Below, in pieces: positions 5,779 through 23,735 of a stretch of DNA of 27,317 nucleotides. This stretch comes from a virus. The stretch spans positions 1 to 27,317 of IMG/VR virus record IMGVR_UViG_3300011009_000012. One strand, 5' to 3'. The position numbers were made by a program, and so were the translations under genes. The notes beneath the pieces are model-generated. The model was not told where the DNA came from. It saw only the letters and a list, made by a program, of their open reading frames with translations, and searched no databases. Position 1 is the first letter of the stretch; every line of letters starts with the position of its first letter.

Positions 5779-8700
5779 TTACCTCTGGAGCCGCAGGGCA
5801 ATAAAACTGATGTCGGAGACATTGACGGCTGTACTCCCAACCGTCCGTTGCAATGTGACGTAAAAACTCTTACTCCCTATCGTACTAGGAGCGCCATAAT
5901 AGGCATTGAGTGCCATGCTCGTCGCAGGGCCGGGATCGGTCTCGGCAGTGCTATTGAGAATATTACCCGTAAGGTTATCCTCGCGAATCCGCAGCGTCAG
6001 GGTGTTTGCATCCCCGCTATTCCCAATCCCTTGCACCCAGAGGAGGACGACATCAAATTGGTTGAGGAGCGTCCAGGTCAGGGACGCAACAACCGTCTCT
6101 GTCCCGTTGCTGGTAATCGTGGACGCCGAGCTATAGAGGAGCGACTCGGAGACCGCGCCAAAGCCAATCTTAGGCGTCGTAATCGCCTGCGTATCGACGT
6201 GGACCGTCTGGACGGCGAGCTGGCCAATCCCTGCGGACGTCGCACCCCCGGTAAAGTCCCACATGAGGGCGCCATCATAGCGATAGACCTGCAGGCCATA
6301 GTCAATGTTGTTTGGCCCCACTTTGCCGAGATAGATCCGAGGGACAGGGGTATTCTGGGTATCATAGATGGTAATGAGGGTATTCGGGCCATCCATACTG
6401 ATGGTTGACCCTACGCCAAGCGAGTACACGGCCTGGAGGGCGCCTGTAATCAGTTTATTCGCTGAGACGGTATTAATCTTGGCGTCATCGATAATCGCAT
6501 TGGCAATCTGGGCAGCCAGGGTAATGACCGCGACGTCCGTGCGCAGACTCGCGGCTTCGATGGCGCCTGCGCGGATCGTACGTGCGGTGATCGAGGCATC
6601 ACTAATCCCGGCATTCTGCACCCCGTCCGTAAAGTTCCACATGAGTTCGCCGTTTGGGCCAAAAATCTGCATCCCATAGGCAGTATTGAGTGCGCCGAGC
6701 TTACCGAGATAGACGCGGGGGGCCTGGGTATTCTGGGCGTCAAAGATCGTGATGAGATTGTTCACGCCATCCAGGACAATATTATTCACCCCCAGGCGCA
6801 CGAGGACGTTCACCGTGCCCGCGAGCAGCTTGTCCGCGGCGAGACTGGAAATATAGGTCGTATCGAGCTGCCCGGCGGTGCCTACCACGCCAGCAATAGC
6901 TGAGGCAGGGTGAAAGGCGAGACTCTCATTTCCGGAGGTATCCACCGCACGCAGCCAATAGTAGCGCGTATCATTGGGACCGAGTCCCTCCCGTACGGCA
7001 CTACTCCAACCTGTGAGGGGGAGTCGTGTGGCATTGGCGCGCTGATTCGTGAGTGACTCGTAGATCGCACAATGGTCATAGTCGAGGTCTGGGGGCGGTG
7101 TCCAGAGGAGCGCGATAGCGCGAATACTGCCGATGGCATTGAGGTTCGTCGGGGCCGCCGGCGGCGTGGTATCTTTCCCGGTGGTAATCGTCGCTTCAGG
7201 GCTAAAGGGAGAGATATTATGAAATTTATCAAACGTGAGGAGGCGGACGCGAACCACCAGGCCGCCGGGGACGTTAAAGCGGATCGTATGCTGACTACGC
7301 TCAGGGTTAAAGACCGTTGGTGACGTCGAACTCCCCACAAAGACGTGCACTTCATACCCTGCGACGTCGGATTCTGGCGCGAGGTCCCAACTGGCCTCGA
7401 CCCACGTCACAATCGTCCCGTCTGCGCTGACGTCGGATCCGGTTGTCAGTGTCAAGCCGGTCGGCATGTCCGGGGGCGTCGTGTCGAGAAAGGCGGCATC
7501 AAACGCTACGGCGACAAAGCTCGCGATATGGGAGGGAATACCAGGCCCAAACGTGTCATAGGGAAGGATGTAGGTATAATACGTGGTGCCTGCGACAAGC
7601 CCTGCCGGATAAAACCGCTGAAACGCTATGCCAACGTCTTGCTCAATCGCAATGGGCGGGGTCATGGTGTCTAGATGCACTTCATAGTGGTGGAAGTCGC
7701 GAGGTTCGGCAAACTGATCCCAACTGATCTTCGCGGCCCCAAAGAGCGGAAGCACCTCAGGAATCATATCCCCCATATCGGGCGGGGGATTGATCGCTAT
7801 GAGGATCGCGGGTTGCAAAGAGACACGATTCGTATTCGTCCGTGCCCACACATAGATCCAGAGGTCGCGCCGCGCCCCACCAAAGCCCGCCCGAATCTGA
7901 TCTTCGGCATTTTGCTCGAGGGTATAACTCCAACTGAGCGTCGCACCGGGGAGTTGGGCCGGCACGGTCGTCGCCCGCAACTGATACTGTTGGCCCGGCG
8001 CCCAGACTTCGACCAGGTAGTCTTGGACAAAAAAGGTTGTGGTAAACAGGCCATTATCTGCGACTGGGCTCCACTCAATATGAAGATCACGTCCTTCCCA
8101 CTCCGTCGCCCCCACTTGCTGCCCTTTAAGCCGTAACTGCTGCACGGTACCCGGAAAATAGTCAGGCGTCGTGGGGCCGGCGACATGGATAATCCCCTCA
8201 CGTCCGCCCGTATTGTTCGGCACGCCACGGCCAGAGACCGGAATCACGCGGTAGATATAGGTCGTGCCCGTGAGGACGGTATAGTCATCCCAGTCGAGTA
8301 CATGGCCGTGCAGTTCCTGGAGCGGCATAAAATTGACGTTGGCGTCATTAGGGCCCTGGATCATCCCGAGATCACCGCCGGCCTGCGCGACCCCCGCGCC
8401 ACTGCTATCGAGCACGGCACGCCGGAGAATAAACGCGCCGCCATAGGGCGCGAAGCTCCCGGAGAGCGCAGCGACACTCCAGGAGAGATTGACGACCCGC
8501 AAACTCGCGCCGCTGGCCTGAATCCGCGTCACTTCCGTGAGGACGAGGCCGGTAAGCGGTGGTGGCGGTCCTTCGGGATTGAATAGGTTCGTGATGACGG
8601 GCAGGGCGGTGGCGACGGCCTCATCATAGATCGAGGGATTATGGATGACGCCCTGAAGATGGACGGTCGTATCAGACTTGCGCTGGAGGGCGGTCACGCG

Positions 8701-11154
8701 GAAAATCTTCACGGCGGTCTCCGTGGGCGTACTCTCTCCAAAGGCCCACAGGGTCCCGCGCTCCTGATCGGGGACGTGACTGAGTGCTGCCGCAAGCGTC
8801 ACCGCCGTGGCGGTGCCAGCGCCGGGAAAGTTCACGGTGCGGACTTCGGTACTCAGATCGGCATGGCGGATATAGACATGATAGGTCTTGCCCGTCACAA
8901 ACGTCACAGGGACATCGAGCAAGAGCGTGGTAGTGGTACTGCCTGGGAGGAGGCGTCCGCCGGTGCCCCAGCCGGGCAAGGGATGCGCAAAACGAAAGAG
9001 ATCATGGCGCTGCATGCGGAGGGCATCAAGCGCCACGTCCATCTCGAGGATGAGGGTTTCAAAGCGGCGCCGATTGAGCTCGAACTGGAGCGCGCGCATG
9101 ACCTCGCTAGGCTTCGTGACGCCACGTAGGTCGAGACTGGCCTTGCGCACCTCGGCAGGCCAATTATCGATGGTCGGCCAGGTGATCACGTCTTGCTGAA
9201 AGTTGTTCTCTTCATTAGCAAACCGGCCTTCCATCACATTAATGCGGTCGGGATCACGCGTATAGCGGAGCTTGACGTTCGTACAGTTCGCCCAGTTGAA
9301 GAGTTGCACCGGCGTCTCATCGAGGGTCGGATGGGCGGTCCAGACCCCCTCATCCTTGAGCAACAGGGTCCGCGAATTCCCGGCCATCTCAAGGAGCGCT
9401 GGTTGGGCGCGGAGTTCGCGGTCTAGGGAGTAGTTGAATGTATGGCGTGTCTCGCCGCTGACCAGGGAGGCGCAATACGTCCCCCAGACGCCAAAGGAGG
9501 CCAAGTCAATCTCCGCATCGGGAATGCCGAGGCCATAGCGGGGATGCGTCATCATGTCCATCACGCACCAGGCCGGGTTATTCGTGTAATTCCAGTTCTG
9601 AGTAAACTCATTGACGCGAATAATCCGCCCCAGAATCCGCAGGGTAATGTTGGGCAAACTCCCCTGGAGGGCATCTGTGGCGACGGCGCGCAACCCCAGG
9701 AGCGGCGTATTGGGATAGGCATTCGTGTTGTGCTGGATCTCGGTCACTGACTCGAGGGTTGGCAGCCACTTGGCCTGCACGTCATCGATATGCCGGGCAT
9801 GCGAGAATTCCACATGCACATCATAGATCGCAAGCGGGAGCCCTTCGCGCCGAATCCCAAAGCGCACGGCAGAGGTCCGCGCTGCGGCCACGTCGAAGAA
9901 GCTGAAACTCGTCCAGGTGCCTGCTGGATGCACCCGGTAGCGATACCCCAGCGTCGTCACGTTCTCTTCTTTTTCTCCCGTCTTGGTCAGGAAGAAGAGG
10001 CCTTCTTGAAACGCAATATTGAGGGCAAAGGCCTGTACCGCTTGCGTCGTGGTATAGACAATGCCGGGATCGACACCAATGGCACGCCCATCGGCAAAGG
10101 TATTCGCGGTCTCGCCAAACTCGGGAATAGGGGTCTGGTCACTATACCCATTGCGCGTATAGACGAGCACCTGCGGAAAATTGCCCAGCGGTTGTCCGTT
10201 GATCTCCATCGTCTCGGTGAGGAAGCCGCCAATCGGCCCTTCGCCAAAGCCGAGGAGGAGATTGAGCGTGGGCGCTGCGGCGACGGCATCAACGCGGCGC
10301 GTCGGGGCCGTCGCGGGCGTATCGAGCGTGACGAGGATGCCCCCGCCGGTATAGGCCCGTTGGTCAATGCCCTCTGAGGAGTTGAGGGCGACGGTATTAT
10401 CATCGATATAGGTCACGTACCAGCCGCCATTCGTGGCTGTCTTGCCCGTGACGCCGCCGATATCCACATGCGTTCCGGTACTGGCCCCATGCCCATTGGC
10501 GACCACGACAATCGGATTGCCCACGGTCCCATCAGGGGAGAGATCGCCGCCATAGACGGTATCAATGGCATGCGACACGCCCGCCGTCGCCCCCGAGGGA
10601 TCGACATCAATCACGGTCATAGCCTGTTCGACGGCGGCACTGAGCAGTTGCCCGGCGACGCGCGGACTCCCGTAGTGGACGGGGACGACGTTGCCAGGGC
10701 CAATAGTGGTGCGAATGCCCTCAAAGGAGAACGTCGGCTCATCCACGGCCTGTTGGATATGGGGCTTGGCGGGGGGGAAGAGGAGGTAGGTCAAGGCCGT
10801 GGTCGCGATGCCGATGGCGAGTCCCACCACGGCATAGATGAGGAGCGGAATCAGGACGCCCTCCTCAATCCCCCAGCGCGGGATAAGCCACACCTCGTCA
10901 TGGTCCTGGATCAGCGTCGTCGCCCAGTCGGCGGGGGGAATGACTTTGCCGCTGATACTGACCTGCGCCGCCGGAATGTCGGGCGGCAGGACAGACGCCA
11001 GGGGGACGCCAGGGGTCAGCGGGAGCCGGATGGTCCGCCAATGCCGATCCGCGCCACGGACGGGTGAACAGATAATGACGAGTTCCGCGGTAACGAGGCA
11101 GAGGTCCTGGGGAAGAGGGCGCGGGGGGGCACGCAAGGTGCGGATCGGCTTCAT
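5779..11154 (-). CDS. J-like central tail tip / host specificity protein with fused I-like N-terminus
   Basis: This protein has 1791 residues. The ATG at 11154 overlaps the NlpC/P60 stop in an ATGA junction with GGAGG about 10 bases upstream; an in-frame start at 11202 is less likely. Residues 1-100 look like a ubiquitin-fold tail assembly domain, followed by a hydrophobic segment (LLIYAVVGLAIGIATTALTY) and a motif close to those of lambda gpI-type proteins (IGPGNVVPVHYGSPRVAG). An inserted beta module (NPIVVVANGHGASTGTHVDI to AYTGGGI) follows, then the large J-type hub. Fn3 repeats start near DTTPPDMPTGLTL and DTTPPAAPTNLNA. Near the C-terminus a unit of about 120 residues occurs twice (NLITIFDAQNTQAPRVYLGK and TLITIYDTQNTPVPRIYLGK). 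By family, this protein caps the tail, nucleates assembly and touches the receptor. Confidence 0.88.
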   Translation of the reverse strand: MKPIRTLRAPPRPLPQDLCLVTAELVIICSPVRGADRHWRTIRLPLTPGVPLASVLPPDIPAAQVSISGKVIPPADWATTLIQDHDEVWLIPRWGIEEGVLIPLLIYAVVGLAIGIATTALTYLLFPPAKPHIQQAVDEPTFSFEGIRTTIGPGNVVPVHYGSPRVAGQLLSAAVEQAMTVIDVDPSGATAGVSHAIDTVYGGDLSPDGTVGNPIVVVANGHGASTGTHVDIGGVTGKTATNGGWYVTYIDDNTVALNSSEGIDQRAYTGGGILVTLDTPATAPTRRVDAVAAAPTLNLLLGFGEGPIGGFLTETMEINGQPLGNFPQVLVYTRNGYSDQTPIPEFGETANTFADGRAIGVDPGIVYTTTQAVQAFALNIAFQEGLFFLTKTGEKEENVTTLGYRYRVHPAGTWTSFSFFDVAAARTSAVRFGIRREGLPLAIYDVHVEFSHARHIDDVQAKWLPTLESVTEIQHNTNAYPNTPLLGLRAVATDALQGSLPNITLRILGRIIRVNEFTQNWNYTNNPAWCVMDMMTHPRYGLGIPDAEIDLASFGVWGTYCASLVSGETRHTFNYSLDRELRAQPALLEMAGNSRTLLLKDEGVWTAHPTLDETPVQLFNWANCTNVKLRYTRDPDRINVMEGRFANEENNFQQDVITWPTIDNWPAEVRKASLDLRGVTKPSEVMRALQFELNRRRFETLILEMDVALDALRMQRHDLFRFAHPLPGWGTGGRLLPGSTTTTLLLDVPVTFVTGKTYHVYIRHADLSTEVRTVNFPGAGTATAVTLAAALSHVPDQERGTLWAFGESTPTETAVKIFRVTALQRKSDTTVHLQGVIHNPSIYDEAVATALPVITNLFNPEGPPPPLTGLVLTEVTRIQASGASLRVVNLSWSVAALSGSFAPYGGAFILRRAVLDSSGAGVAQAGGDLGMIQGPNDANVNFMPLQELHGHVLDWDDYTVLTGTTYIYRVIPVSGRGVPNNTGGREGIIHVAGPTTPDYFPGTVQQLRLKGQQVGATEWEGRDLHIEWSPVADNGLFTTTFFVQDYLVEVWAPGQQYQLRATTVPAQLPGATLSWSYTLEQNAEDQIRAGFGGARRDLWIYVWARTNTNRVSLQPAILIAINPPPDMGDMIPEVLPLFGAAKISWDQFAEPRDFHHYEVHLDTMTPPIAIEQDVGIAFQRFYPAGLVAGTTYYTYILPYDTFGPGIPSHIASFVAVAFDAAFLDTTPPDMPTGLTLTTGSDVSADGTIVTWVEASWDLAPESDVAGYEVHVFVGSSTSPTVFNPERSQHTIRFNVPGGLVVRVRLLTFDKFHNISPFSPEATITTGKDTTPPAAPTNLNAIGSIRAIALLWTPPPDLDYDHCAIYESLTNQRANATRLPLTGWSSAVREGLGPNDTRYYWLRAVDTSGNESLAFHPASAIAGVVGTAGQLDTTYISSLAADKLLAGTVNVLVRLGVNNIVLDGVNNLITIFDAQNTQAPRVYLGKLGALNTAYGMQIFGPNGELMWNFTDGVQNAGISDASITARTIRAGAIEAASLRTDVAVITLAAQIANAIIDDAKINTVSANKLITGALQAVYSLGVGSTISMDGPNTLITIYDTQNTPVPRIYLGKVGPNNIDYGLQVYRYDGALMWDFTGGATSAGIGQLAVQTVHVDTQAITTPKIGFGAVSESLLYSSASTITSNGTETVVASLTWTLLNQFDVVLLWVQGIGNSGDANTLTLRIREDNLTGNILNSTAETDPGPATSMALNAYYGAPSTIGSKSFYVTLQRTVGSTAVNVSDISFIALRLQR

Positions 11155-11543
11155 GCGGTGAGGGGCCTCCAGCGTGCGATTTGCAAGAGGCGCGGACGCC
11201 AATGCCGACAGCGCTCCAGACAGACCCCGCCATCACTGGCGCGGGCATGCACAAACATCACGCCATCCGTCACAATCCCGACATGGCGGGCAAAGGGGAT
11301 AGTCTCCAGCTTCGCGAAGATCACCAGATCCCAGGGGCGCAGCAGCCGCAACGGATCACCGCCCTGCTCATGCCACCAGATTTCCACAAACTCTTCAGCG
11401 GCGGTGAGTTGGTCCGTCGCGAGGTCGACACCGAAGCCCTCGCGGTAGAGCAGGCGCACCAGATCCCAGCAGTCAGCCTGACCGTAGGGCATGCCGATGT
11501 AGGGATTGGCAATGGTACGTGGATCTGGGAGAGTTAGAATCAT
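11151..11543 (-). CDS. NlpC/P60-family tail cell-wall hydrolase
   Basis: This protein has 130 residues. The N-terminus carries the papain-like signature GMPYGQADCWDLVRLLY with the catalytic Cys, and HVGIVTDGVMFVHA supplies the conserved His region of NlpC/P60 (C40) peptidases. The family cuts the D-gamma-glutamyl to diamino acid bond or related links in peptidoglycan. In phages such as lambda the homologous C-terminal half of gpK sits directly before the I and J genes, and that is the position here. The JAMM domain found in lambda gpK is absent, so only the C40 half remains. The start at 11543 lies 3 bases after the preceding stop. It probably acts in tail tip assembly or in wall penetration at infection. 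Confidence 0.85.
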   Translation of the reverse strand: MILTLPDPRTIANPYIGMPYGQADCWDLVRLLYREGFGVDLATDQLTAAEEFVEIWWHEQGGDPLRLLRPWDLVIFAKLETIPFARHVGIVTDGVMFVHARASDGGVCLERCRHWRPRLLQIARWRPLTA

Positions 11544-11546
11544 AGG

Positions 11547-12047
11547 CTATCTTCTTGGTAGATTTTCAAATCCACTAGTACTATTATATCTACGCTTGGG
11601 TAGCAACGTCCCCAGCGTGTACCCTTCTGCGACCAGGTCAAATGTTGCGACAAGGAAATCCGTATCCACGCTATCGACCACAAGCACGGCTCCGGAGCCA
11701 AACGGCGTCTCGTCCGGTTGCTGGACGTCAATCTGCCAGAGCGTGACCTGCCAGTTGGGGTCCACGCCCCAGTAGTTCTCCAGGAGTGACGAAATAGACT
11801 GATCTACATTGGCGGCAGTCACGCGAATATGGACCAGGGCGTCACTAGTGGCTTCCTCAAGGATATCGAGGTCCAGAGGAAACCTGAGGAAGGGAAAACC
11901 GTGAAAGGTCACATCCTGGTCATAGTTCACGATCCGATACGGGACCAGCGCGCCAGGGATATCCACTTGCATCGCCACGGTCATGACGTGATCACTCGCG
12001 ACGCGGGCGAGTTCCTGGGCAAGGGCGGCGCTGTAGATGCGTGGCAC
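11547..12047 (-). CDS. DUF1833-type minor tail protein
   Basis: This 166-residue protein starts at GTG 12047, sharing one base with the stop of the upstream gene (TAGTG) and preceded by AGGAG at spacing 8. The sequence follows the DUF1833 pattern of siphophage tail tip proteins: a helical start, a strand with DIPGALVPYRIVNYDQDV, FPFLRFPLDLDILEEAT, a section on VDQSISSLLENY, and an Arg-rich tail (LLPKRRYNSTSGFENLPRR). It sits between a minor tail protein and the NlpC/P60 gene, where lambda carries gpL and gpM, so a hub or tip role is likely. The DNA becomes AT-rich over its last 60 bases. Confidence 0.72.
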   Translation of the reverse strand: MPRIYSAALAQELARVASDHVMTVAMQVDIPGALVPYRIVNYDQDVTFHGFPFLRFPLDLDILEEATSDALVHIRVTAANVDQSISSLLENYWGVDPNWQVTLWQIDVQQPDETPFGSGAVLVVDSVDTDFLVATFDLVAEGYTLGTLLPKRRYNSTSGFENLPRR

Positions 12048-12643
12048 TAGAGTTGCTCCTCAATCGTCACGCTGAAGTTGTACGCAGGCGGTGTCTGCCC
12101 GCCAATAGGACTCAGCGTTTCAGGACCACGAAGCACGGTTGCCCCAGGCCAGGTATCCTCAGAAAAGACGCCTGTGGCAGCGAGAATATACACACGAGCC
12201 GTGCCAACGCCCGTACCGATACTGACGCTCCCGTTGAGGCTAATTTGTACTGAGTTCAGGCGTGTCACAGTGTAGAAGCCATTTCGCGCATTGCCGCCCG
12301 GCGAGCTGAATATGCCAACCATCTGGTTCGTAATAAGACCGTGTGCGCCATTATAGCTGATGGCTATAGGACTTGTAGCAGCAAAAGTAACAGCATCAGT
12401 TGCAGTCGGATGCCACCAAGAAAAGGGGATGGCTCCGAACCGTTGCGCCGCAAGGAAATCCCGAATCAGGTGCATGTCGTTCGCGGTCTTGCCAAGATAT
12501 TCCATAGTAAATCGCCTACGAGGCCGACTATGCTTTACGCGTCGCAACTCGATGCCGCTGTCGGTAGTCATTCTGAAAATCGGATCAATAAACTCAGGTA
12601 CGGAAACATGACTCGGCAATGGGGTTTGTGGATAATCAGCCAT
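12047..12643 (-). CDS. Minor tail protein with inserted beta module
   Basis: This protein has 198 residues. The N-terminal 90 residues follow a pattern known from phage minor tail proteins downstream of the tape measure: an Arg-rich strand (RRVKHSRPRRRFTMEY), a helix that counts off a loop (LIRDFLAAQRFGAIPFSWWHP), and a closing strand at the far end (YNFSVTIEEQL). Between them, residues 95-155 hold an inserted module (SPIAISYNGAHGLITNQMVG then ARNGFYTVTRLNSVQISLNG). Related modules occur in the larger tail tube paralogue and the J-like protein in this window. TAGAGG precedes the ATG by about 9 bases. The likely place is the tail tip next to the distal tail protein. It plays the part of lambda gpM or gpL only by position. 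Confidence 0.68.
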   Translation of the reverse strand: MADYPQTPLPSHVSVPEFIDPIFRMTTDSGIELRRVKHSRPRRRFTMEYLGKTANDMHLIRDFLAAQRFGAIPFSWWHPTATDAVTFAATSPIAISYNGAHGLITNQMVGIFSSPGGNARNGFYTVTRLNSVQISLNGSVSIGTGVGTARVYILAATGVFSEDTWPGATVLRGPETLSPIGGQTPPAYNFSVTIEEQL

Positions 12644-12655
12644 GTTTCGTAGCCT

Positions 12656-15600
12656 CTAGCGCTGCGTCGTGCGCAAAACACGCGAAATACGACTGGACTC
12701 CCCTCGCGACAAATCCGCAAGGACTTCATTCAGAATCGCCTGCTTCCCAGCAGCCCGTTGATTCATAGCTTCTTGTTCGGCCTGCTGTCTGTTTCCAGAG
12801 GTATAGTTTATAATAGTTACTCCGCCTGCAGATTGCCCTCCGGCAGTAGGAGTCGCTCGCATAGCAGCAGCGAACAACCCTTGAATCTGTGGTTTATTCA
12901 GAATTAGCTCTGGATTCATATGGGGATTTTCGCCAGCCAGGATCTGCGTGGGCCGATTCACGATCGCGCCTCCTTGCGCCCGAAACGTCGTTGCGAGATT
13001 CGCCCCACTCCCCGTCGTGTCTGCTGGAAAGCCTGAGGGTCCGACGCTGGGCGTGAGCGCACTGGCGAGCAGGCCGACGCCGATATGGATGAGGGACTTC
13101 CAGGCTTCCTGGGACGTAATCTGAATAATCGACTGGAGGATACTCCGGGCCATCTCGCGAAAGGCCTGTGAGACCGTCTTCGTGCCATCCGAGATCCCGA
13201 GGAGCGCACTCGTCCAGGCATTTCCTACGGAGGCGCCGAACTCTTCGAAGAGCTTGAGCTCATAATTGAGTTGCTGTTGCGCATGGACCTGGGCACGGAC
13301 CTGGTCTGCAGAGGTGCGATCTGCCGGCGTGAGCAGCTTGGCATTCTCTTTCTGGCGCAGCTTGACATCCTCAAGCGTCTCACCAAAGGGAAAGGCATCG
13401 CTGCGCTGCACCTGCAGTTGTTCGAGGCGATCTTGTACCTGCTGAAGGGTCTGTTTACTTTGTTGATCTTGCGCGAAGGCAAGCGCACTAGAGTCGGCCT
13501 CTCGGCGCAGGCGCGGTACCTTCGCCAGCGCGGCAGTGCTCGCCTGAATCGCTGCGAGTTGGGCCGCCGCTTCCTCATTCCAGGCGGATGCCGCCAGGGT
13601 GTCTGCGAGTTGCGCTGCCCGGTCGGCATCACGGGCCTCTTTGAGCATGCCGTAACTCGCCGCAAGTCGCGTCAGTTCGTCGTGGGCTTGGCGTTGTTTC
13701 GTCGCCTCCTCCTCATACGCCTGGTCGAGGACGCGCCCTGTCTCCATCGCCTGATGCCGCCGCTCCGTCGCGAGGGCGTCTTCCTGCCGTTCCTGTTCAT
13801 CCAAGCCTCGCAGATACTCACGACCAGTGGCCCGAATCTGGGCCAGGCGTTCCGTATCGGGCTTCCCTGCCTCAACGGCCGCCTTGAGCGCCACAGACTG
13901 CATGCCGGCCTGGGCGACGGCCCCACCAACGCCGCTCGGCATCCGTGCAAGGACGTCTTGGGCGAACGTCGCATTTTCGCCGATGCGTTGCGGAATACCT
14001 TTGCCGCCAGGCCCAGCATTATAGGCCGTCAGCGCTTTCTCCGTGTCGCCGCGAAACTGCCGAAATAACTCTGCCAGGTATGAGAGGCCTGCTCGGAGAT
14101 TCGTTTCTGGGTCGTAGGGTGACTGGCCAGCGGGGACATACGTCGCAGCCGTGGAGGGCATGAGTTGGAGCAGGCCCATCGCGCCCACCCGGGACGTGGC
14201 CCGCGGGTTAAATCCAGACTCTTGCGCGACCAACGCTTTCGCCAGCGCAGGGTCAATATTCTTTTCCCCGGCAATCCGCGTAATGAGATCATCATACGGG
14301 GACGGCTTGCCCATACCCGCATCGACTAACGACTTCCGCAAGGGCTCGCTCAGTTTGCTGAGTTCGTCACGGACTTTCTTCAGCGTCTCTTCCCAGGACT
14401 TGAATTTTTCCTCAGCACTATTCAACTCGGGGAGAAACTGCGCATCCAGATCGAGTTGCGCAAGACCCTTCTGCCCTTCGGCCAGGATGGCACGAATCTT
14501 GTCTTCCGCATTAATGAGGGGATTGCCTGAGACGTCCTTCCCGACAAAACTCCCGCCGGCTGCGCCGACGTCGGCGGTCAGCCGGCGTTCGCGCTCGGTA
14601 AGGGCCGCCTTTTGGTCGGCGAGTAGTTGGTCGACGAGCGCGCGCTGCTTGGCAATCGCCGCATCACTCACGGTAAAACTCAGGATCCCTTGCTGGCGCT
14701 GGATCATCTCCCGCAGCGCGTCTTGCGCCGCGGTGATTTCACTCGCGCGCGCCTTGATATCAGGGGGAATCCCCCCACTACTCACCTCAGGAACGGCCGG
14801 AGGCTTGGGACCGCCCAGTCTCTCATTGACCTCACGCTCTTTGCGGCTCGTCTCCAGGAGCTTCGCCATCCCCGCAGCGGCATCCCGGAGAAAATCCAGG
14901 AGGCCTGACGCAGCAATCCGCTCTTTGAGCAGAAAGATCTCATTCCCCAGATTGGCAAAGGCCGTACTGGCCAGCTTTCCCACTTCGGTAGCATTCACCC
15001 CGAGATCATCCCGCAGTGTTCGGGCCACCCCAGGCAAGGTCTCCGTGGCGAGCACTGTACCGCTCGCAGTCATCCGCGCCAGCTCTTGCGTCGTCACGCC
15101 CATGCTCTTCGCAAAGGCTTCCATGGCCCCAGGCATCGCCATACTGAGTTGGCGTAACTCCCGCATATTGATGACATTGGTTTGAATCATGCGATCCAGG
15201 GCAAAAAACACGCGATTGAGGTCTGCCCCTTGAATCCCCATGGAGCGTGCCGCGAGCGCAAAGCTACTAAAAATCTCACGCCCTTGCTGGCCCTCCAGGC
15301 TGGTGCCCTTCATGGCGGCTTCAAAATTCCGAAAGACGATAGCACTCGAGGCAAGATCGAGCCCGAGCCGCTGGGATTCGCGCGTGATAAAGGCAAGATC
15401 CGCTGCGCCACTTTGCGCGGAGCCACCAATGCCCTTGAAGGCTAGTTGCAAGCCTTGCATCTTCTGGCCGACATCTACGACACTTTTGGCAAACTCGACA
15501 AGGCTACTGGTAAGACCACTGATGGTGGTGGCAATCCCGATGCCGCCCGCGACGCCAAGCATCGTCTGAAGAATGCCGCTACTACCCCCGCCGGTCCCGC

Positions 15601-16018
15601 TGTCAATCCCAAAGCGCTGGAGTTGGTTCAATTGGGCCTGGGCTTCGCGAATCCCTGCGGTAAATTGCTGGAGGGCTTGACTGGCGGATTTCGAGAGTTG
15701 ATCACCAAATTTATCGATCATCTGCCCGCTGGCATTGGTGGTGACGCCAAACTGTTTGACGGCCTGTTCAGCCTGTGTGATCGCTTGGCGGAGGGCGGCC
15801 TGACTATTCCCCGCGGCAAGACTGGCCCTGGAGAAGGTCTCGGTGGCCGTGGTGAGCGCGGTAAAGGGAAGGGTTGACGCCGCGACAGCGGGGCGCAGCT
15901 GGTCGAGCTTGTCACGCAACTCCTGAATGCGCTGGGTGGCCCCCTGCATTTGCGCGCCGAAGCCCGAGGTTTCGAGCTTTAACTGTGCTACGATGTCGCC
16001 TATATTTATCTCGGTCAT
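12656..16018 (-). CDS. Tape measure protein with lytic transglycosylase domain
   Basis: This protein has 1120 residues, the second longest in the window. Residues from about 20 to 140 are coiled coil. A hydrophobic segment follows (MLGVAGGIGIATTISGL), then a TIGR02675-like tape measure core (FNLxK-type pattern: LAFITRESQRLGLDL, RVFFALDRMIQTNVINMREL, AMPGAMEAFAKSMG). Residues from about 575 to 680 are an SLT domain: the catalytic Glu is in LVAQESGFNPRA, followed by GAMGLLQLMPSTA and ALTAYNAGPGG. More coiled coil follows and the C-terminus is basic. By the usual tape-measure scale of about 0.15 nm per residue, the tail would be near 170 nm (inference). The SLT domain probably opens peptidoglycan at DNA entry. 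A weak TAGGA and an AT-rich leader precede the ATG. Confidence 0.93.
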   Translation of the reverse strand: MTEINIGDIVAQLKLETSGFGAQMQGATQRIQELRDKLDQLRPAVAASTLPFTALTTATETFSRASLAAGNSQAALRQAITQAEQAVKQFGVTTNASGQMIDKFGDQLSKSASQALQQFTAGIREAQAQLNQLQRFGIDSGTGGGSSGILQTMLGVAGGIGIATTISGLTSSLVEFAKSVVDVGQKMQGLQLAFKGIGGSAQSGAADLAFITRESQRLGLDLASSAIVFRNFEAAMKGTSLEGQQGREIFSSFALAARSMGIQGADLNRVFFALDRMIQTNVINMRELRQLSMAMPGAMEAFAKSMGVTTQELARMTASGTVLATETLPGVARTLRDDLGVNATEVGKLASTAFANLGNEIFLLKERIAASGLLDFLRDAAAGMAKLLETSRKEREVNERLGGPKPPAVPEVSSGGIPPDIKARASEITAAQDALREMIQRQQGILSFTVSDAAIAKQRALVDQLLADQKAALTERERRLTADVGAAGGSFVGKDVSGNPLINAEDKIRAILAEGQKGLAQLDLDAQFLPELNSAEEKFKSWEETLKKVRDELSKLSEPLRKSLVDAGMGKPSPYDDLITRIAGEKNIDPALAKALVAQESGFNPRATSRVGAMGLLQLMPSTAATYVPAGQSPYDPETNLRAGLSYLAELFRQFRGDTEKALTAYNAGPGGKGIPQRIGENATFAQDVLARMPSGVGGAVAQAGMQSVALKAAVEAGKPDTERLAQIRATGREYLRGLDEQERQEDALATERRHQAMETGRVLDQAYEEEATKQRQAHDELTRLAASYGMLKEARDADRAAQLADTLAASAWNEEAAAQLAAIQASTAALAKVPRLRREADSSALAFAQDQQSKQTLQQVQDRLEQLQVQRSDAFPFGETLEDVKLRQKENAKLLTPADRTSADQVRAQVHAQQQLNYELKLFEEFGASVGNAWTSALLGISDGTKTVSQAFREMARSILQSIIQITSQEAWKSLIHIGVGLLASALTPSVGPSGFPADTTGSGANLATTFRAQGGAIVNRPTQILAGENPHMNPELILNKPQIQGLFAAAMRATPTAGGQSAGGVTIINYTSGNRQQAEQEAMNQRAAGKQAILNEVLADLSRGESSRISRVLRTTQR

Positions 16019-16088: not shown

Positions 16089-16421
16089 CTACGGCCAGGG
16101 GATCGCATGCCCGGTGTCGAGCAGCGTCTGATTGACGTTGACACCCTGGGCAGTCGTCAGGACGCCCAGGTAGCGTCCGTAGTTATCAGTGCGGTCCTTG
16201 ATGGTCACGAGCGTCACCGTTGCCGGCAGTGGCCCGAGCAGCATCGCCACATAGTCCCGCGCCACTTTGCCTTCAGGCGTGACGAGCTCGGGGGCATTGA
16301 TATACGCTAATCGAATCCGCTGATTCTTGTGCCACAGATCAAAACCTAACGATATATCTAAAAGAACAGTATCAGCATCGACTATTCGCGTGACCAGAGC
16401 GCTATACGTGTAAAGCGTCAT
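16089..16421 (-). CDS. Staphylococcal-nuclease-like (thermonuclease fold) protein
   Basis: This 110-residue protein is a compact SNase domain. IVDADTVLLDI matches the first strand with the metal ligand Asp. RIRLAYINAPE matches the active-site segment with the catalytic Arg and Glu. DRTDNYGRYLG matches the segment with the second catalytic Arg. The enzyme family cuts DNA and RNA with calcium. The position matching Asp40 of the staphylococcal enzyme (D in DTPE or DAPE) is Asn here, which could weaken metal binding or may be tolerated. No signal peptide is present, so it acts inside the cell or within the virion. The gene lies between the GT chaperone and the tape measure gene, an unusual place for a nuclease, 9 bases past the GT stop. 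The role in the phage cycle is unknown. Confidence 0.82.
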   Translation of the reverse strand: MTLYTYSALVTRIVDADTVLLDISLGFDLWHKNQRIRLAYINAPELVTPEGKVARDYVAMLLGPLPATVTLVTIKDRTDNYGRYLGVLTTAQGVNVNQTLLDTGHAIPWP

Positions 16422-16430
16422 GACCTTGGC

Positions 16431-17188
16431 CTAGCTATAGGGCTTCGGGACTTCTGGGAGACTATTCCAAAACTGGACAAACCCTTCCATTCGTTCCTGG
16501 AGTACCTCGACTGGCGGTGCAGTAGGCGTTGTCGGTGGCCCATACCCAAACCATCCCCGGACTTCGTCCCAGCTAAACGGCTCACGGCGTGCCTCGCTAT
16601 CGCGGTGCACATTCATGGTCACCTGGAGGAGCAAGAGCAGCGGCGCTTCCCGCCGTTCCTGGAGTGCGAGGTACTGGGCCTTGAGCAGATGCGCCTCGAG
16701 AAACGTGAGTCGCCAGAACTCACGTTCACTTAGGCCGAGGACAGTGCGGTCATAGGCCCAGACGGCACGCCAATCGATGCGTCCAAAGGGTTCGTGTCAG
16801 GGACGACCTCACCCTGCGATGCCGCGGGGGGCGGTGGCGGACTCGCCGCTTGCCACGCTTGCATAATAGCAATTGCGTAGGGCACCAGATCGCCAGGAGT
16901 CATATACGGGAGCGTCGCCTCGACCTCGGCATAGGACAAGCTGGGATCTTCATGGAGCAAACCTTGCCAGGCGAGAATCCCAATATCCGTGATACTCAAG
17001 GCCGCTACGTCGCCCTGCGCGAGATGTTGAGCCAGGCGCAGGATGGCAGAGAAGAACGTCCGCTCCTGCCCCCACGCGCGGGAGAGTTCGATCTCACTCT
17101 GGCGGACCGCCGCGCGAGTAAAGAGGAGATGGCGCACGCGATCCCCTAGGGTAATGGGGACAGGGTCAACAACGCGGGGTTCAGACAT
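16431..17188 (-). CDS. GT tail-assembly chaperone fusion made by -1 frameshift
   Basis: A slip on C CCT TTG (16784-16790, minus strand) moves ribosomes from the G frame to the -1 frame. The fused product has 252 residues: 135 codons of frame 0, then 117 residues of the T part. The T part reads GRIDWRAVWAYDRTVLGLSE then EFWRLTFLEAHLLKAQYLAL and ends PEVPKPYS. Its GLSEREFW signature is typical of tail chaperone extensions. The -1 frame has a stop a few codons upstream of the slip site and no good ATG until far downstream, so it is reachable mainly by frameshift. In lambda, gpG and gpGT are 140 and 274 residues and recruit the tail tube protein to the tape measure. The size and position here match that arrangement. 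Confidence 0.82.
16730..17188 (-). CDS. G tail-assembly chaperone (unshifted product)
   Basis: This 152-residue protein starts at the ATG at 17188 (MSEPRVVDPVPITLGDRV) with AGGAAG about 9 bases upstream. A longer frame from a TTG at 17215 lacks a good ribosome-binding site. The product is helical (QSEIELSRAWGQERTFFSAI, LSYAEVEATLPYM, IAIMQAWQAASP), ending in a Pro/Ala-rich linker and PMTALSSA. It lies directly downstream of the tail tube genes and upstream of the tape measure gene, as expected of lambda gpG-type chaperones. The slip site falls near its C-terminus, at codons 134-135. It acts in the cytoplasm during tail assembly and is not expected in the finished virion. Confidence 0.8.
   Translation of the reverse strand: MSEPRVVDPVPITLGDRVRHLLFTRAAVRQSEIELSRAWGQERTFFSAILRLAQHLAQGDVAALSITDIGILAWQGLLHEDPSLSYAEVEATLPYMTPGDLVPYAIAIMQAWQAASPPPPPAASQGEVVPDTNPLDASIGVPSGPMTALSSA
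16784..16790 (-). promoter_or_regulatory. -1 ribosomal frameshift slippery heptamer CCCTTTG
   Basis: Read on the minus strand, frame 0 is AAC CCT TTG GAC. The heptamer C CCT TTG fits X XXY YYZ exactly: both tRNAs can re-pair on CCC TTT in the -1 frame. The -1 frame then stays open for 117 residues and encodes a recognisable T domain. The coordinates agree: 405 bases from the start to the end of TTG, then 354 bases to the stop at 16431, both multiples of three. I did not identify a definite downstream stimulatory stem. Confidence 0.78.
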
Positions 17189-17250
17189 GCTGGACTTCCT
17201 TCCTCTACGAGACAAAGCGATTTAAATATATATAGAAATAATACTAAAAG

Positions 17251-17655
17251 TTACGCAAATGCCATTGCCTCATCGGGAGTAAGGACAACACGTAGCGGTA
17301 ACACCCCCTCGACTGGCGCGCTCGGCATGGAATAGTCCGAGACAAATGCATTAAAGGTCCAGGTTGGATTCCCTGAGACGGGCAGGACAATGGTAAAGGC
17401 GGTTGACGTGCCCGCAAGCGCCGCTGCGAGTAAGGCTTGGTGCGTGGCCGCGCCTGGCACAAAGTTGAGATCAACCGTAATGTTCTTCCCACGCTTCAAG
17501 GTTGGAATAGAAACAGCCCAACCTGAACTATCATGGGAAGTCGCATCAGCTAAACCCGTTGAAAAACCTACGTCTGTGATATTCCGAACTTCCACAACGG
17601 TGCTGCCCGCAATTTTTAGCAACGTACCGTTAGCGGACTTTGCTAAGGTTGTCAT
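17251..17655 (-). CDS. Major tail tube protein, short paralogue
   Basis: This 134-residue protein is of the size of the core domain of siphophage tail tube proteins. The start MTTLAKSANGTLLKIA and the core VVEVRNITDVGF, LADATSHDSSGWAVSIPTLK, VDLNFVP and ATHQALLAA match the larger protein encoded at 18602-19264. The fold is expected to be the beta barrel that stacks in hexameric rings. The gene lies directly upstream of G and GT, the usual place of the tail tube gene. The DNA between its stop and the G gene (17216-17250) is AT-rich. Which of the two paralogues makes the main tube cannot be told; the short one is the simpler candidate. Confidence 0.83.
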   Translation of the reverse strand: MTTLAKSANGTLLKIAGSTVVEVRNITDVGFSTGLADATSHDSSGWAVSIPTLKRGKNITVDLNFVPGAATHQALLAAALAGTSTAFTIVLPVSGNPTWTFNAFVSDYSMPSAPVEGVLPLRVVLTPDEAMAFA

Positions 17656-17675
17656 GTCCTATACCTTTCTAGACA

Positions 17676-17704
17676 TTGTAGTTTCTCATATTTCCTGCTA
17701 TACT
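17676..17704 (+). promoter_or_regulatory. Promoter for the plus-strand HNH gene
   Basis: TTGTAG (17676-17681), a 17-base spacer and TATACT (17699-17704) make a sigma70-type promoter, with TGC immediately before TATACT giving an extended -10. It points rightward into the HNH gene, away from the tail operon. The ten bases CTGCTATACT match those at 507-516 before the other homing-type gene. Confidence 0.55.
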
Positions 17705-17797
17705 CTTCCTGCCGAGAGAGCAGGCATGCTCGTTGTCTGGTTATGCCTCTACATACCCAGGCCTCGGCACAAGCCACTGATCGTAGAGGAGATCATG

Positions 17798-18607
17798 ATG
17801 GGCGAAGTGCTGCCCCTGCATGCCCCAGCTGCTAAGTGCTGTCATACCTGCAACGTCTTCAAAGATCGCGATAAATTTGGCCCAAATAAGCGCAAGAAAG
17901 ATGGCAAGTCGATCTACTGTCGAGAATGCCAAGCTAGAGCCAACCATGAATATTACGAAGCACATAAGGAAGAAATGGAGCCTGTCTATGCAGAATATCG
18001 TGAGACTCACCGTAACTATCAGAATGCCTACAATGCGACCTACCGCGTAGAGAGCAAAGACAAGATTACGGCACATCTGGTGGAAACACACGAGGAGCGG
18101 CTTGCCAAAAGGCGAGCAAAACGTGAGGAGAATCCTGGGGAAGGCCATCGATACTATGAAACACATAAGGAAGAAAGTAAGAAGCGTGCCGCAAAGGCGT
18201 ATGCCGAAGACCCCGAAAAGTTTCTCAAGCGCAATGCAGTATGGCGCAAGGCGAATCCTGAGCAAGCCAAAGAGTTGGCTCGCCGGCGGCACGCTCGCAA
18301 GAAGAATGCGCCAGTCATTAACCTGAGCACTGAGCAATGGCTGGAGATACTGGCAGCATTTAACTATCGCTGCGCCTATTGCCCCAAAGATTGTCTGGAG
18401 TGCAAGAAGAAAACGCATGACCTGACTGCTGACCATGTGACACCCTATGCGCATAATGGTTCACATACGCTGTGGAATGTTGTGCCAGCCTGTAAGTCTT
18501 GCAATTCACGCAAACATACAGGTCCGCCTCCCGTGCCAGTCCAAATACTTCTCCTCACCGTTTCTTCTCCAAAACCCCTCAAACGCAAGAAAAAGGACGC
18601 CTCATGA
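17798..18607 (+). CDS. HNH homing endonuclease
   Basis: The 269-residue frame starts at the second of two adjacent ATGs (17795 and 17798); AGGAG stands 6 bases from the second and only 3 from the first. Residues from about 10 to 45 hold a four-Cys cluster (CHTCNVFKD and YCRECQAR). A long Lys/Glu-rich helical region follows, with YYEAHKEE and YYETHKEE repeated. The C-terminal third is a classic HNH core: CAYCPKDC, then DLTADHVTPYAHNG, LWNVVPACKSCNSRK. This predicts a metal-dependent DNA nuclease that spreads itself into uncut homologues. It is inserted against the operon between two tail tube paralogues, and its stop shares the palindrome TCATGA with the stop of the convergent tail gene. Confidence 0.88.
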   Translation: MGEVLPLHAPAAKCCHTCNVFKDRDKFGPNKRKKDGKSIYCRECQARANHEYYEAHKEEMEPVYAEYRETHRNYQNAYNATYRVESKDKITAHLVETHEERLAKRRAKREENPGEGHRYYETHKEESKKRAAKAYAEDPEKFLKRNAVWRKANPEQAKELARRRHARKKNAPVINLSTEQWLEILAAFNYRCAYCPKDCLECKKKTHDLTADHVTPYAHNGSHTLWNVVPACKSCNSRKHTGPPPVPVQILLLTVSSPKPLKRKKKDAS

Positions 18608-19264
18608 GTTCGACCAGGTCATCTGCCCGTCAATCGCAATCGTGACGGTCGTCGCCAGCGGCCCTATGGGCATAGTGCTACTGTGCTCACTGACCCAGCC
18701 ACGAAAGGCGCAGATCGCGTGGGGGGTACCAGGCGTGATGAGGAGCCAGGGTTTGCTGACGCCACTCAAGGCCACGTAGAGCAAGCCCGTCAGCTTGTCG
18801 TGTGTCGCGTGTAAGGGGACCCAATTGACATCGACCCGCATCGCCTTTCCACGCTTGATAATGGGAATCGACACGCCAAAGCCGCTGGCGCCGTCATGGG
18901 CCGAGACATCAGCGAGGTCCGTATTAAACCCGGCATCCTGAATATTGCGGACCTCGGCAATCGTCGCGTAGGTACTGCCGAGCGTGAGGGTACCGCCTGA
19001 GACATACGCCGCGTTGCCGACCGAGTTGCGCAGTTTCAGGTGCGTGGCATCCACCCGCTCGACAATCCAGGTGCCATTCGCCGCGGTCAGCCCGACGACG
19101 CCGGTGATCGTGCCGTAGGACGCCACAGCGATCCCATGCGGGGTACTGGTTTGCACGACGATAGGGCTCGCATTCGTTGCCCCAGCGATGGTTAAAGGCG
19201 CTATGGGTGTATCATCCCCGAGTTGCAGGGCCATCCCGAACGCAGATCTCGCTAAGGTGGTCAT
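18602..19264 (-). CDS. Major tail tube protein, long paralogue with inserted beta module
   Basis: This 220-residue protein is a paralogue of the one encoded at 17251-17655. Both begin MTTLA(R/K)SA and share EVRNI.D.GF.T.LAD, HD.SG..VSIP..KRGK, VD.N.VP and ATH..L. The extra 86 residues lie mostly at positions 20-95: NASPIVVQTSTPHGIAVASY, then GTWIVERVDATHLKLRNSVG and a Ser-Gly-Gly strand. That module resembles the short beta domain often labelled E1-FCCH-like in phage proteins. In some phages a decorated tail tube protein is made by frameshifting at the gene's 3' end; here the decorated form appears to be a separate gene. An ATGA overlap joins it to the preceding zinc-finger gene, with AAGGGGG upstream. 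Confidence 0.8.
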   Translation of the reverse strand: MTTLARSAFGMALQLGDDTPIAPLTIAGATNASPIVVQTSTPHGIAVASYGTITGVVGLTAANGTWIVERVDATHLKLRNSVGNAAYVSGGTLTLGSTYATIAEVRNIQDAGFNTDLADVSAHDGASGFGVSIPIIKRGKAMRVDVNWVPLHATHDKLTGLLYVALSGVSKPWLLITPGTPHAICAFRGWVSEHSSTMPIGPLATTVTIAIDGQMTWSNS

Positions 19265-19566
19265 GCGCTCGCCCCCTTCTCTGGCGTCGCCTCAGCCTGC
19301 GCAGGCGGGTTGGCCGGTTCGGAGACCTTCGTGGGCGGCGCACCCGTCTGTGGGGCACGGACCGCACGAGCCACCGGCGGGGCGGCTGGACGTGCTGCAC
19401 GATGCGGCGCTTCTGGCGTGTCTTCGGGAGACAGCGCCACGTCATGACGCTGTTGCATGTGCTGCGCAAAGAGATCGCGGTCCATCGCCCAGTGATCGCA
19501 GAAGTCACAGCAATAGCGCTGGGTACCTTCGTGGTCTTCCGTGTGATAGTGCAGGGTCTCAGGCAT
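19261..19566 (-). CDS. Small C2H2 zinc-finger protein with Pro/Ala-rich tail
   Basis: This protein has 101 residues. Residues 18-41 read CCDFCDHWAMDRDLFAQHMQ followed by QRH: Cys-x2-Cys, a hydrophobic spacer, then His-x4-His, the layout of a C2H2 finger. The last 55 residues are Pro, Ala, Glu and Thr-rich and probably disordered. AAGGAG precedes the ATG at spacing 8, and the stop overlaps the start of the long tail tube gene. Coupling to a tail tube gene suggests a head-tail connection or a tube assembly factor, but the family is not recognised. A role in DNA binding is possible. It pairs with a second, similar small finger protein just upstream. Confidence 0.75.
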   Translation of the reverse strand: MPETLHYHTEDHEGTQRYCCDFCDHWAMDRDLFAQHMQQRHDVALSPEDTPEAPHRAARPAAPPVARAVRAPQTGAPPTKVSEPANPPAQAEATPEKGASA

Positions 19567-19568
19567 CG

Positions 19569-19772
19569 CTAGGCTCCTTCGCGGGCATCAGCCGCAGCCC
19601 GCAGTGCTTCTAGGGCCGGAATCGTTGGATGGGGAATCGGGGTGGTGTTGTGGGCGTCTGCGAGATGGGTCGTGAGTGCTACCAGGGTCGCATGGCGAAA
19701 GGTGTTACAGAGGAGACAGACATGACTCGGCGGGGTATCCCAGATACTGAGGGTATAGGTTGCATCAGCCAT
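19569..19772 (-). CDS. Small C2H2 zinc-finger protein
   Basis: This protein has 67 residues from the ATG at 19772 (MADATYTLSIWDTPPSHVCL). A TTG at 19793 in the same frame has no better ribosome-binding site. Residues from about 19 to 42 read CLLCNTFRHATLVALTTHLA followed by DAH, giving Cys-x2-Cys and His-x4-His as in a C2H2 finger. The tail is helical (IPALEALRAAADAREGA). No clear ribosome-binding site is seen, so it may depend on read-through translation from upstream or on a weak site. It is separated from the following finger gene by 2 bases. Function is unknown. Confidence 0.62.
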   Translation of the reverse strand: MADATYTLSIWDTPPSHVCLLCNTFRHATLVALTTHLADAHNTTPIPHPTIPALEALRAAADAREGA

Positions 19773-19847
19773 ACGAACAGCACCACGCCACAAAAAAGAC
19801 CCGCACTCAATATCCGGGGCAGGATACCGAGCCGGGTCTCATAGCTA

Positions 19848-21138: not shown

Positions 21139-21474
21139 TCAGGCAAGTGCCGCCACAATGCGCACCAAAAAATAGGTATCATCAGGGAAAATGGCCATTA
21201 AACCATCTGACCATCGAATGGCCCACTCGCCCTCATAGACTCCCGGCGCAAGCGCCTGCGGCGCCGGCCACTGATACCGCACCGTCATCGCGGCTGGATC
21301 CACGATCTCAGCGTCCTCATTGAGGACGATCACGCCCGCTGGACTACGTAACCGCAAGGTGACCGTCGCCCCTCCGAGATCACGGGTACTGAGTGGCCCC
21401 CCGCTCAGCGTGGCGTCGAGCGTAGGGCTATTCGTTCCCACTTTCATCGTAAAATCATAGTCCGTCGCCATCAT
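21139..21474 (-). CDS. BppU-like N-terminal (Ig-like) tail protein
   Basis: This protein has 111 residues. The first ATG overlaps the preceding stop, and a second ATG 3 bases on has better spacing (4 bases) to GGAGG. The chain reads as a small beta sandwich: YDFTMKVGTNSPTL, DLGGATVTLRLRSPAGVIVL, then AMTVRYQWPA, PGVYEGEWAIRWSDGLMAIF and DDTYFLVRI. This order, with DLxGATVTL and the closing PDDxYFxVRI, is one I know from phage baseplate upper protein (BppU) N-terminal domains and related tail proteins. These normally anchor a fibre to the tail. Here the domain stands alone, so the partner may be the large repeat protein encoded just upstream. Confidence 0.7.
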   Translation of the reverse strand: MMATDYDFTMKVGTNSPTLDATLSGGPLSTRDLGGATVTLRLRSPAGVIVLNEDAEIVDPAAMTVRYQWPAPQALAPGVYEGEWAIRWSDGLMAIFPDDTYFLVRIVAALA

Positions 21475-23735
21475 GCCTCCACATCAGCCAGGGTAGGAAT
21501 CTCGTGAATATCGGCCTGCGCGGGCACGCGTACCCCAAAATGACTGCGGAGCGGGCCATGAATGACGCCAGGGGCGACAAAGACGAGGCTGAGATGAGTC
21601 TGGGCCGCGCCTACCCCATCCATACGCGAACTCGCCACCAGCGTGACCTGACTTCCAGAGTCGCCTTGTGAGGGACTAAGCCCGCTCGCCTCCAGCAGTG
21701 CGGCGCCGTCCTCCGCCACAAGCACCGCAAGCAGTTCGCTGGCAAGGACCTGGGCGAGCCCGGTGAGGAGGGCAGTCTGATCGCGAAGAGAACTCGTGAG
21801 CGTTGCTGCAAGGGCCTGTGCCACGCCAGGAGCGGTCAGGATCGTCGTGGCGAGCAAGGCCGCGCTCGCCTGCGTGGCCCCCGCAGTGCCGAGAAAGGCC
21901 GTCGCGAGCTGGGTACTCTGCGCCTGGAGACTCCCCTGCGGTGCGAGCAGATTGGCGCTCACCGTTGGCGTGCTACTGCCTATTGCGGTACTACTGACGG
22001 CGAGTTGCTGCCCTGATAGCGCGATCCCCAGCGCGCTTGCGACGCCAGGGGCGGTGAGCACAGCACTCACGAGCGCACTCGCGAGCGCATGGACGGCTCC
22101 TGCACCATCAACGGTAGCATTGGCCTGCGCCGTCGCGAGCGCCTGGAGACTTCCGGTCGCCTGGATAAGGGCACTGCCAATGGCTGTAGCGATGGCCTGC
22201 GTCACGCCAGGAGCCGTCAGGACAGCACTCGCGACAAAGAGGGCCTGCGCGGCACTGGTAACGGTGGGACTGACGCTTTGTGTCGTAGGATCGCCAGGGA
22301 TCTGGGCACTCTGGGCCTGCGCACTGCCGGTCCCGGCCTGCAGGGAACTCGCAAGGGTGGCTGCGACAGCCTGCGTTACGCCCGGTGCCGTCACAAGTGA
22401 ACTTGCGAGCAGGCTACTGACGGCCTGGGCCGTGGCACTACGGTCGAGTACCTCACTGGCAACGCGCGTAGAGCCCCCGGCACTGCTCCCAGCCGCAGTG
22501 GGGAGGAGTTGCGCGAGGATCGTGAGGAGCGCACTCGCGTTGTCGGTGGCAAGCACGGATACCGCTTGACTGAACAGGGTCTCGAGGCTCGTCTGCGCAC
22601 TCCCACTGCCCGTGATGGAGGACACGCCTGGGGTGGCGCTGGCAATGGCTTGCGCGAGCACGGCAAGGAGCGAACTCGCGAGGAATGTGGCCGTCGCCTG
22701 GGTCACCCCGAGGCCTATGACAAGCGCACTGATGATGGTCGCGAGGGATGCCGTCGCGCTCCCCGTCGCCGTGGGAAGCACCGTGCTCGTGACCTGGACG
22801 GTGGCGAGGCCACTTGCGGCACTGAGAAGCGCCATGAGGGAACTGGCAGTCGCTGTCGCCGCGCCCTGGCTCGCGCCAAGTCCCGCCTGGAGCGAACTTG
22901 CAAGGAGGCTACTCGCCCCCTGGGCACCACTCGTAAGGCCGATGAGCGTACTCAGGTCCTGCGTACTGAGTGCCGTTGCCTGCCCACTTCCGGCGACCAC
23001 TTGACTGAGCAGGGTGGCAGCCAGGGCACTCGCAACGGCGCTGGGTGCGAGGGTTTGACTGAGGAGAAACGCGGTCGTCAGGCTGGCAGCACCCGTTGCC
23101 ACCCCTACCTGACTGAGGAGCGTCGCAAGTTGCGTCGCACTCATGCCGCTCGCCGCGACGAGTTCGCTGAGCAGCGCGGCACTCTGGGCTTGGGCCTGGC
23201 CGGTCCCAGCTTGGAGGCTACTGGCGAGGAGGGTAGCGATGGCCGTCTCTGCCACCGTCCGTGCGAGGAGCGAACTAGCGAGCGGCGTCGCCGCCCCCTG
23301 GCCACTGCCCGCGCCGGGCGTGCTGTTCGTCAGGACACTGAGCGCCGCGAGAGCCTGGGCACTCGGGGTAGGCGCGAGGAGACTACTGGCCAAGCGGACA
23401 CTGCTGGCCTGACTACTGCCGCTCGCCCCAGGCAGGAGGTTTGTGGCAACGAGCGCCGCTGCCAGCGCTTGGGCCGCGACCGGCGTCGCGAGGATTGCGC
23501 TAAGGAGCAGGGACGGCGTGGTCGCCGCCGTGCCCGTCCCTGCTTGGAGTGAACTAGCGAGCAGTGCGGACGTTGCCGTCGCAGCGTCCGCGGGCGCCAG
23601 CAGTGAACTCGTGAGGAACGTCACCGTCCCAGCCGCCCCCCCGCTGACCGCACACGTCGCGGCATTCGGCGTGATGAGCGGCGCCAGATGGGACGGCGGG
23701 GGAAGAAACGGCGGCGGCGGATAAAAGATGGCCAT
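21471..23735 (-). CDS. Giant Ala/Ser/Leu/Thr-rich protein of about 35 repeats of roughly 18 residues
   Basis: This protein has 754 residues and follows a Pro-rich start (MAIFYPPPPFLPPPSHLAPL). From about residue 35 to 680 the chain repeats with a period near 18 residues. The consensus is about A-S-S-L-x-A-x-G-x-x-x-A-x-A-x-x-x-L; LASSLQAGTG and LTAPGVTQA recur almost unchanged. Trp is absent and only one Cys was noticed. The last 60 residues are unlike the repeats (VTLVASSRMDGVG, then HFGVRVPAQADIHEIPTL). The pattern recalls alternating-strand repeats I know from some phage tail proteins and would suit a beta-solenoid or stacked-strand fibre. Helical amphipathic repeats are not excluded. It may be a long side fibre or a host-surface ligand. 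No enzymatic motif is seen. Its start lies 3 bases past the preceding stop with no clear ribosome-binding site. Confidence 0.8.
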   Translation of the reverse strand: MAIFYPPPPFLPPPSHLAPLITPNAATCAVSGGAAGTVTFLTSSLLAPADAATATSALLASSLQAGTGTAATTPSLLLSAILATPVAAQALAAALVATNLLPGASGSSQASSVRLASSLLAPTPSAQALAALSVLTNSTPGAGSGQGAATPLASSLLARTVAETAIATLLASSLQAGTGQAQAQSAALLSELVAASGMSATQLATLLSQVGVATGAASLTTAFLLSQTLAPSAVASALAATLLSQVVAGSGQATALSTQDLSTLIGLTSGAQGASSLLASSLQAGLGASQGAATATASSLMALLSAASGLATVQVTSTVLPTATGSATASLATIISALVIGLGVTQATATFLASSLLAVLAQAIASATPGVSSITGSGSAQTSLETLFSQAVSVLATDNASALLTILAQLLPTAAGSSAGGSTRVASEVLDRSATAQAVSSLLASSLVTAPGVTQAVAATLASSLQAGTGSAQAQSAQIPGDPTTQSVSPTVTSAAQALFVASAVLTAPGVTQAIATAIGSALIQATGSLQALATAQANATVDGAGAVHALASALVSAVLTAPGVASALGIALSGQQLAVSSTAIGSSTPTVSANLLAPQGSLQAQSTQLATAFLGTAGATQASAALLATTILTAPGVAQALAATLTSSLRDQTALLTGLAQVLASELLAVLVAEDGAALLEASGLSPSQGDSGSQVTLVASSRMDGVGAAQTHLSLVFVAPGVIHGPLRSHFGVRVPAQADIHEIPTLADVEA
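21690..23630 (-). repeat. Coding tandem repeat region, about 54 bp per unit
   Basis: The DNA encodes the approximately 18-residue units of the protein above, so the period is near 54 bases with small variations (17-21 residues). Neighbouring copies are diverged and some distant ones are closer, for example the four LASSLQAG(T/L)G units and the four TAPGV units. This suggests repeated rounds of duplication or shuffling by recombination. Confidence 0.7.

Follow-up and report, generated by a model that had tools for sequence, protein, structure and literature searches.

The stretch of DNA analyzed here (the window, 27,317 nucleotides from a virus record of IMG/VR) carries on its minus strand a tail operon of the lambda type. 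In the order of transcription, two small genes coding for proteins with zinc-finger-like motifs (19793-19261) are followed by a gene for a 220-aa protein (18602..19264, -), a gene for a 134-aa protein (17251..17655, -) and a probable G-like tail assembly chaperone (16730..17215, -; PHROG 2115 tail protein, E 7e-4), whose position matches that in relatives and downstream of which lies a probable frameshift partner frame. The chaperone is in turn followed by an SNase-like gene (16421-16089, -), a 1120-aa tape measure protein with an SLT transglycosylase domain (12656..16018, -; Pfam TMP_3 8e-21, SLT 7e-28) and a DUF2460 protein that is probably distal-tail-like (12047..12643, -; Pfam DUF2460 6.7e-5, under the cutoff). 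Further downstream are two more tail genes, one of them NlpC/P60-like, and then the central fibre, a J-like hub of 1807 aa (5779..11202, -; PHROG 31, E 3.7e-104). The only interruption between the 220-aa and 134-aa genes is a free-standing HNH endonuclease gene of 270 aa, which is antisense to the tail operon (17795..18607, +; Pfam HNH 5.2e-9). Rfam and tRNA searches returned no matches. The two adjacent genes occupy the slot of the major tail protein, with the chaperone and tape measure genes lying downstream; in annotated relatives (cf. Dubu, Dryad) this slot holds a single major tail protein, with the terminator on one side and the chaperones on the other.

Comparison of the long and short proteins with each other by BLASTP recovered 47 identical residues out of 104 (45%, E 2e-25), and AF2 modeling of the short (pLDDT 82.1, 18 sequences) and the long protein (pLDDT 85.0, 27 sequences) yielded in both cases a confident model, a beta-sandwich with a flanking helix and a loop between strands 2 and 3. 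Foldseek searches with the short model recovered lambda gpV (TM 0.84, E 5e-8), with further matches to monocin MttP, the gene transfer agent tube and the PVC and AFP rings. The core of the long model likewise recovered gpV, while its best full-length PDB matches were the tube proteins of T1, FCWL1 and a third phage, at a TM of only ~0.5 with high rmsd, probably because the orientation of the domains differs. Both proteins are accordingly modeled as tail tube paralogues with the lambda gpV fold, and the prediction of one fold for the two, rather than of different folds, upholds the earlier note, which had proposed from the open reading frames at these positions that they encode tail tube paralogues. 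At the level of sequence profiles the short protein matches the PHROG 158 major tail protein family (E 2.8e-11), and its Pfam TTP matches, like that of the long core to Phage_TTP_12 (E 0.0014), fall under the curated cutoffs; a PHROG search with the long protein gave no match. PDB sequence searches returned weak matches only, tblastn against INPHARED recovered a single distant single-gene relative for the short protein and FCCH-only matches for the long one, and no relative was found in GTDB genomes (two contig scans).

The additional ~80 residues of the long protein form, in the AF2 model, one compact beta module placed within the first beta-hairpin. An alignment with homologues puts its start after about residue 17 and its end near residue 97 (codons ~18-97; 18974..19213, -), between strand 1 (MTTLA.SA.G..L.LG) and strand 2 (.AEVRNI), in agreement with the previously noted concentration of the extra residues in one block near the N-terminus. 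In the 27-sequence alignment the module is present in all 12 long proteins and in none of the short ones, and its pLDDT exceeds 90 across most of its length. Foldseek searches indicated an FCCH fold (UBA6 and UBA1, E ~1e-4); against the Pfam E1 FCCH profile (PF16190) it scores 11.7 bits, below the cutoff of 29.5. An FCCH-like module also occurs in the J-like hub (10297-10530, -) and, weakly, in the DUF2460 protein (module HMM i-E 5.7e-4), and hence the tube, the distal tail and the hub would have one type of module in common.

The architecture of the long protein finds a close counterpart in T1 gp41 (PDB 9l0f), which combines a gpV-like sandwich with a beta domain of ~80 residues following strand 1 (residues 16-94, as against ~18-97 here); this Ig-like domain lies within the beta-sandwich and reaches outside the tube (PMC11945409). 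The same layout is seen here in the long gene only. Given that the module sits at the insertion point used by T1 gp41, N-terminal insertion is an already known form of tube decoration, and the view of the earlier note that it is unusual does not hold. T1 differs in that gp41 is its sole tube protein, so that every subunit is decorated, whereas the phage studied here has a neighboring gene for a plain paralogue. Lambda gpV and monocin MttP share the core fold and gene position with the pair, but lambda has a single gene with a C-terminal Ig-like domain. JBD30 gp44 and YSD1_22 also possess inserted outer domains, but there the insertion follows the peripheral helix instead of lying in the first hairpin.

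When IMG/VR was searched with patterns and HMMs, the long-then-short order was recovered in 11 other distinct phages (L002, L006, L012, L013, L014, L023, L028, L029, L030/L031, L032 and L050), making 12 with the window; L030 and L031 are identical over 6630 bp and were counted once, and the cut contigs L033 and L034 are outside the 12. Wherever the contig extends that far, the slot before the chaperones and upstream of the tape measure gene holds both tube genes. No third tube gene was found in the 11 pair-bearing records searched whole, five of which are 44-141 kb long, an extra weak match in the L050 record being the N-terminus of the long gene itself. Strong purifying selection acts on both genes, with omega at ~0.06-0.12 wherever dS is unsaturated. 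In phylogenetic trees all long proteins are separated from all short ones and the outgroups with a bootstrap of 93, the grouping of the short proteins being weaker (64), and the tree distances of long and short proteins are correlated (r 0.85). This separation suggests that the two genes most likely stem from a single old duplication that predates these phages. A tandem pair of tube-like genes in which neither member has the inserted module was also observed in L036 (1374-1796 and 1819-2265); the two group together with a bootstrap of 90, and the L036/L037 pair is apparently an independent duplication.

Some observations bear on whether the two proteins assemble together. Long and short proteins from the same phage are on average more similar than those from different phages (41% versus 36% identity; permutation p 5e-5), and when only seven representatives are used the observed own-pair mean is reached in 2 of 5040 permutations. 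The best internal shared stretch, with 70% own-pair identity, comprises residues 37-48 at the start of the strand 2-3 loop, which in known tubes is the main inter-ring contact (PMC8718954). Its retention fits with both proteins stacking in one tube; the own-pair similarity could also be explained by gene conversion or shared ancestry. With regard to the ratio of the two proteins, start-site sequences, stop codons and the use of NNC/NNT codons gave no consistent ranking of the two genes.

Taken with the conserved gene order, we consider it fairly probable that the products of this gene pair make up the tail tube of a siphophage of the lambda type, with plain and decorated subunits occurring in one tube, and a mixed or banded tube, as the earlier note had proposed, is the reading that we infer to be the best. 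In this scheme an old duplication would have given rise to two paralogues sharing the tube fold and, as the most conserved part, the ring-stacking loop. Both would be incorporated into one tube that surrounds the tape measure protein, with the FCCH-like module of the long protein projecting outward, such that part of the subunits or rings would be decorated and the rest plain. The module probably makes weak contacts with the cell surface, an adhesive role for which there is a precedent in the Douge tube protein, whose Ig-like domains bind host glycans when isolated (PMC13033339).

The two genes would in this way achieve what SPP1 obtains by frameshifting. In SPP1 tubes the two forms, decorated and plain, are mixed at ~3:1 (PMC6316719), and gp17.1 and gp17.1* resemble the present pair in that one phage has both forms. 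The decorated form of SPP1 arises by a +1 frameshift that adds a C-terminal FN3 domain, in contrast to the internal module and the two diverged genes found here, which are both full-length, have their own starts and share ~45% identity, unlike the products of an SPP1-type frameshift. The siphophage tube has mostly been treated as a homopolymer in structural work, apart from the known case of frameshift products. What is new is the presence of plain and decorated forms as separate, anciently diverged and conserved genes, whereas neither the insertion point nor the HNH gene is new; no description of such a gene pair was found in the open-access literature searched. A stable two-gene system raises the question of what places the decorated subunits, and as each tube gene can be deleted separately, the function of tube decoration can be asked. 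An ordered two-component polymer, with plain and decorated subunits in fixed rings or zones and the modules marking a defined part of the tail, is an unlikely elaboration; if true, it would represent a heteropolymeric siphophage tube made without frameshifting.

More than one tube-fold protein per machine, as here, is also seen in Pvc1/Pvc5, Afp1/Afp5 and T4 gp19/gp48/gp54. Pvc5, Afp5 and T4 gp48/gp54 are baseplate initiator rings of contractile systems that are encoded elsewhere, and tube initiators are usually encoded downstream among baseplate genes. By analogy, one of the paralogues could form the tube while the other is only a specialized end ring, i.e. an initiator, completion or adaptor protein. 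The precedent of the contractile machines, the PVC and AFP rings among the Foldseek matches and the divergence of the two cores to only ~30-45% identity, which would permit separate rings, all speak for such a possibility (the T4 gp48 and gp54 rings are described in PMC8718954), but both genes lie in the major-tail-protein slot and not among the baseplate genes, and the neighboring roles are already filled by the DUF2460 distal-tail-like gene and, in L013, by connector and tail-completion-like genes. We regard a dedicated end ring as rather unlikely and a tube containing both forms as the better account.

It is quite improbable that the two proteins build alternative tubes according to condition, or that one of them is an assembly factor or decoy absent from virions. 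Structure was seen in the spacer between the long and short genes of L012 (folding z -5.2) and, to a weak degree, in that of L028 (z -2.0), and might uncouple expression of the two genes, but the spacer of the window shows no unusual structure (z -0.4), the genes are always adjacent and both strongly constrained, and the gap between them is merely 19-30 bp in L002, L006, L013 and L014 (30, 20, 19 and 19 bp, respectively; it is 99 bp in L023 and 146 bp in L028). The highly structured spacer of L012 (5872-6000) has a perfect 10-bp hairpin directly after the long gene; RNA structure in the spacer was considered as a conserved mechanism and dropped, the signal being strong in L012 alone.

The HNH gene most likely begins at the ATG at 17795, which is preceded by AGAGGAG, and its stop codon overlaps that of the long gene (shared TCATGA). 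Its product retains the invariant CxxC, H and N residues and a CNS.K motif, and its GC content is 50.3% as against 59.2% for the window. As had been noted before, the gene lies between the tube genes; both of these neighbors are complete, and no coding sequence is interrupted. A scenario in which it split one ancestral gene was considered and rejected, given the intact neighbors and the gaps of 20-30 bp where the site is empty in the closest relatives. The pair was found both with and without an HNH gene, a comparison that the earlier note had suggested: the junction is occupied in five of the 12 phages (the window and, with related HNH genes, L029, L030, L032 and L050), in all cases by an antisense gene, and empty in L002, L006, L013, L014, L023 and L028, while in L012 an HNH relative (39% identical by BLASTP) is situated on the far side of the long gene. 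Free-standing HNH homing endonucleases are known from phage structural operons, where they are intergenic, near essential genes and present or absent among relatives (PMC10448857, PMC3706429). The genes seen here have the same intergenic location and patchy distribution but are always antisense, and in the window, L029 and L030 their stop overlaps or abuts that of the long gene. Judging from this distribution, the HNH gene is an optional, putatively mobile insert separate from the tail system, probably an unrelated homing element whose site is the junction of two conserved genes, and it looks as though an element of this type reached the locus more than once. A functional tie between the HNH gene and the pair, e.g. 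in ratio control or paralogue conversion, is suggested by the recurrence of such genes at five junctions and, in L012, next to the long gene, but is very improbable, as seven of the 12 pairs have no HNH gene in between, and among 80 HNH relatives taken from IMG/VR few are near tube genes, the pair occurring on only three of their contigs (those of L012, L032 and L050) and a single distant tube gene on one more.

Some further features of the neighborhood are worth recording. An antisense HNH-like ORF, absent from the window, separates the tape measure gene from the DUF2460-like gene in L006 (12933-13925, -) and L002 (10423-11415, -). The SNase-like gene (16089-16421, -; Pfam SNase 1.6e-6), which sits between the chaperone and the tape measure gene, is also found in L002 and L006. 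The two small proteins encoded immediately upstream of the tube pair (19261-19566 and 19569-19793, -) contain C2H2 zinc-finger-like motifs, which are odd within a structural operon; a family match was sought for them and none was convincing, and counterparts are found in L002, L006, L012 and L013. Finally, a repetitive protein of 754 aa rich in Ala, Ser and Leu is encoded at 21471-23735 (-), and in the equivalent neighborhood repeat proteins of similar length occur in L006 (681 aa) and L012 (807 aa), with one of 456 aa in L014.
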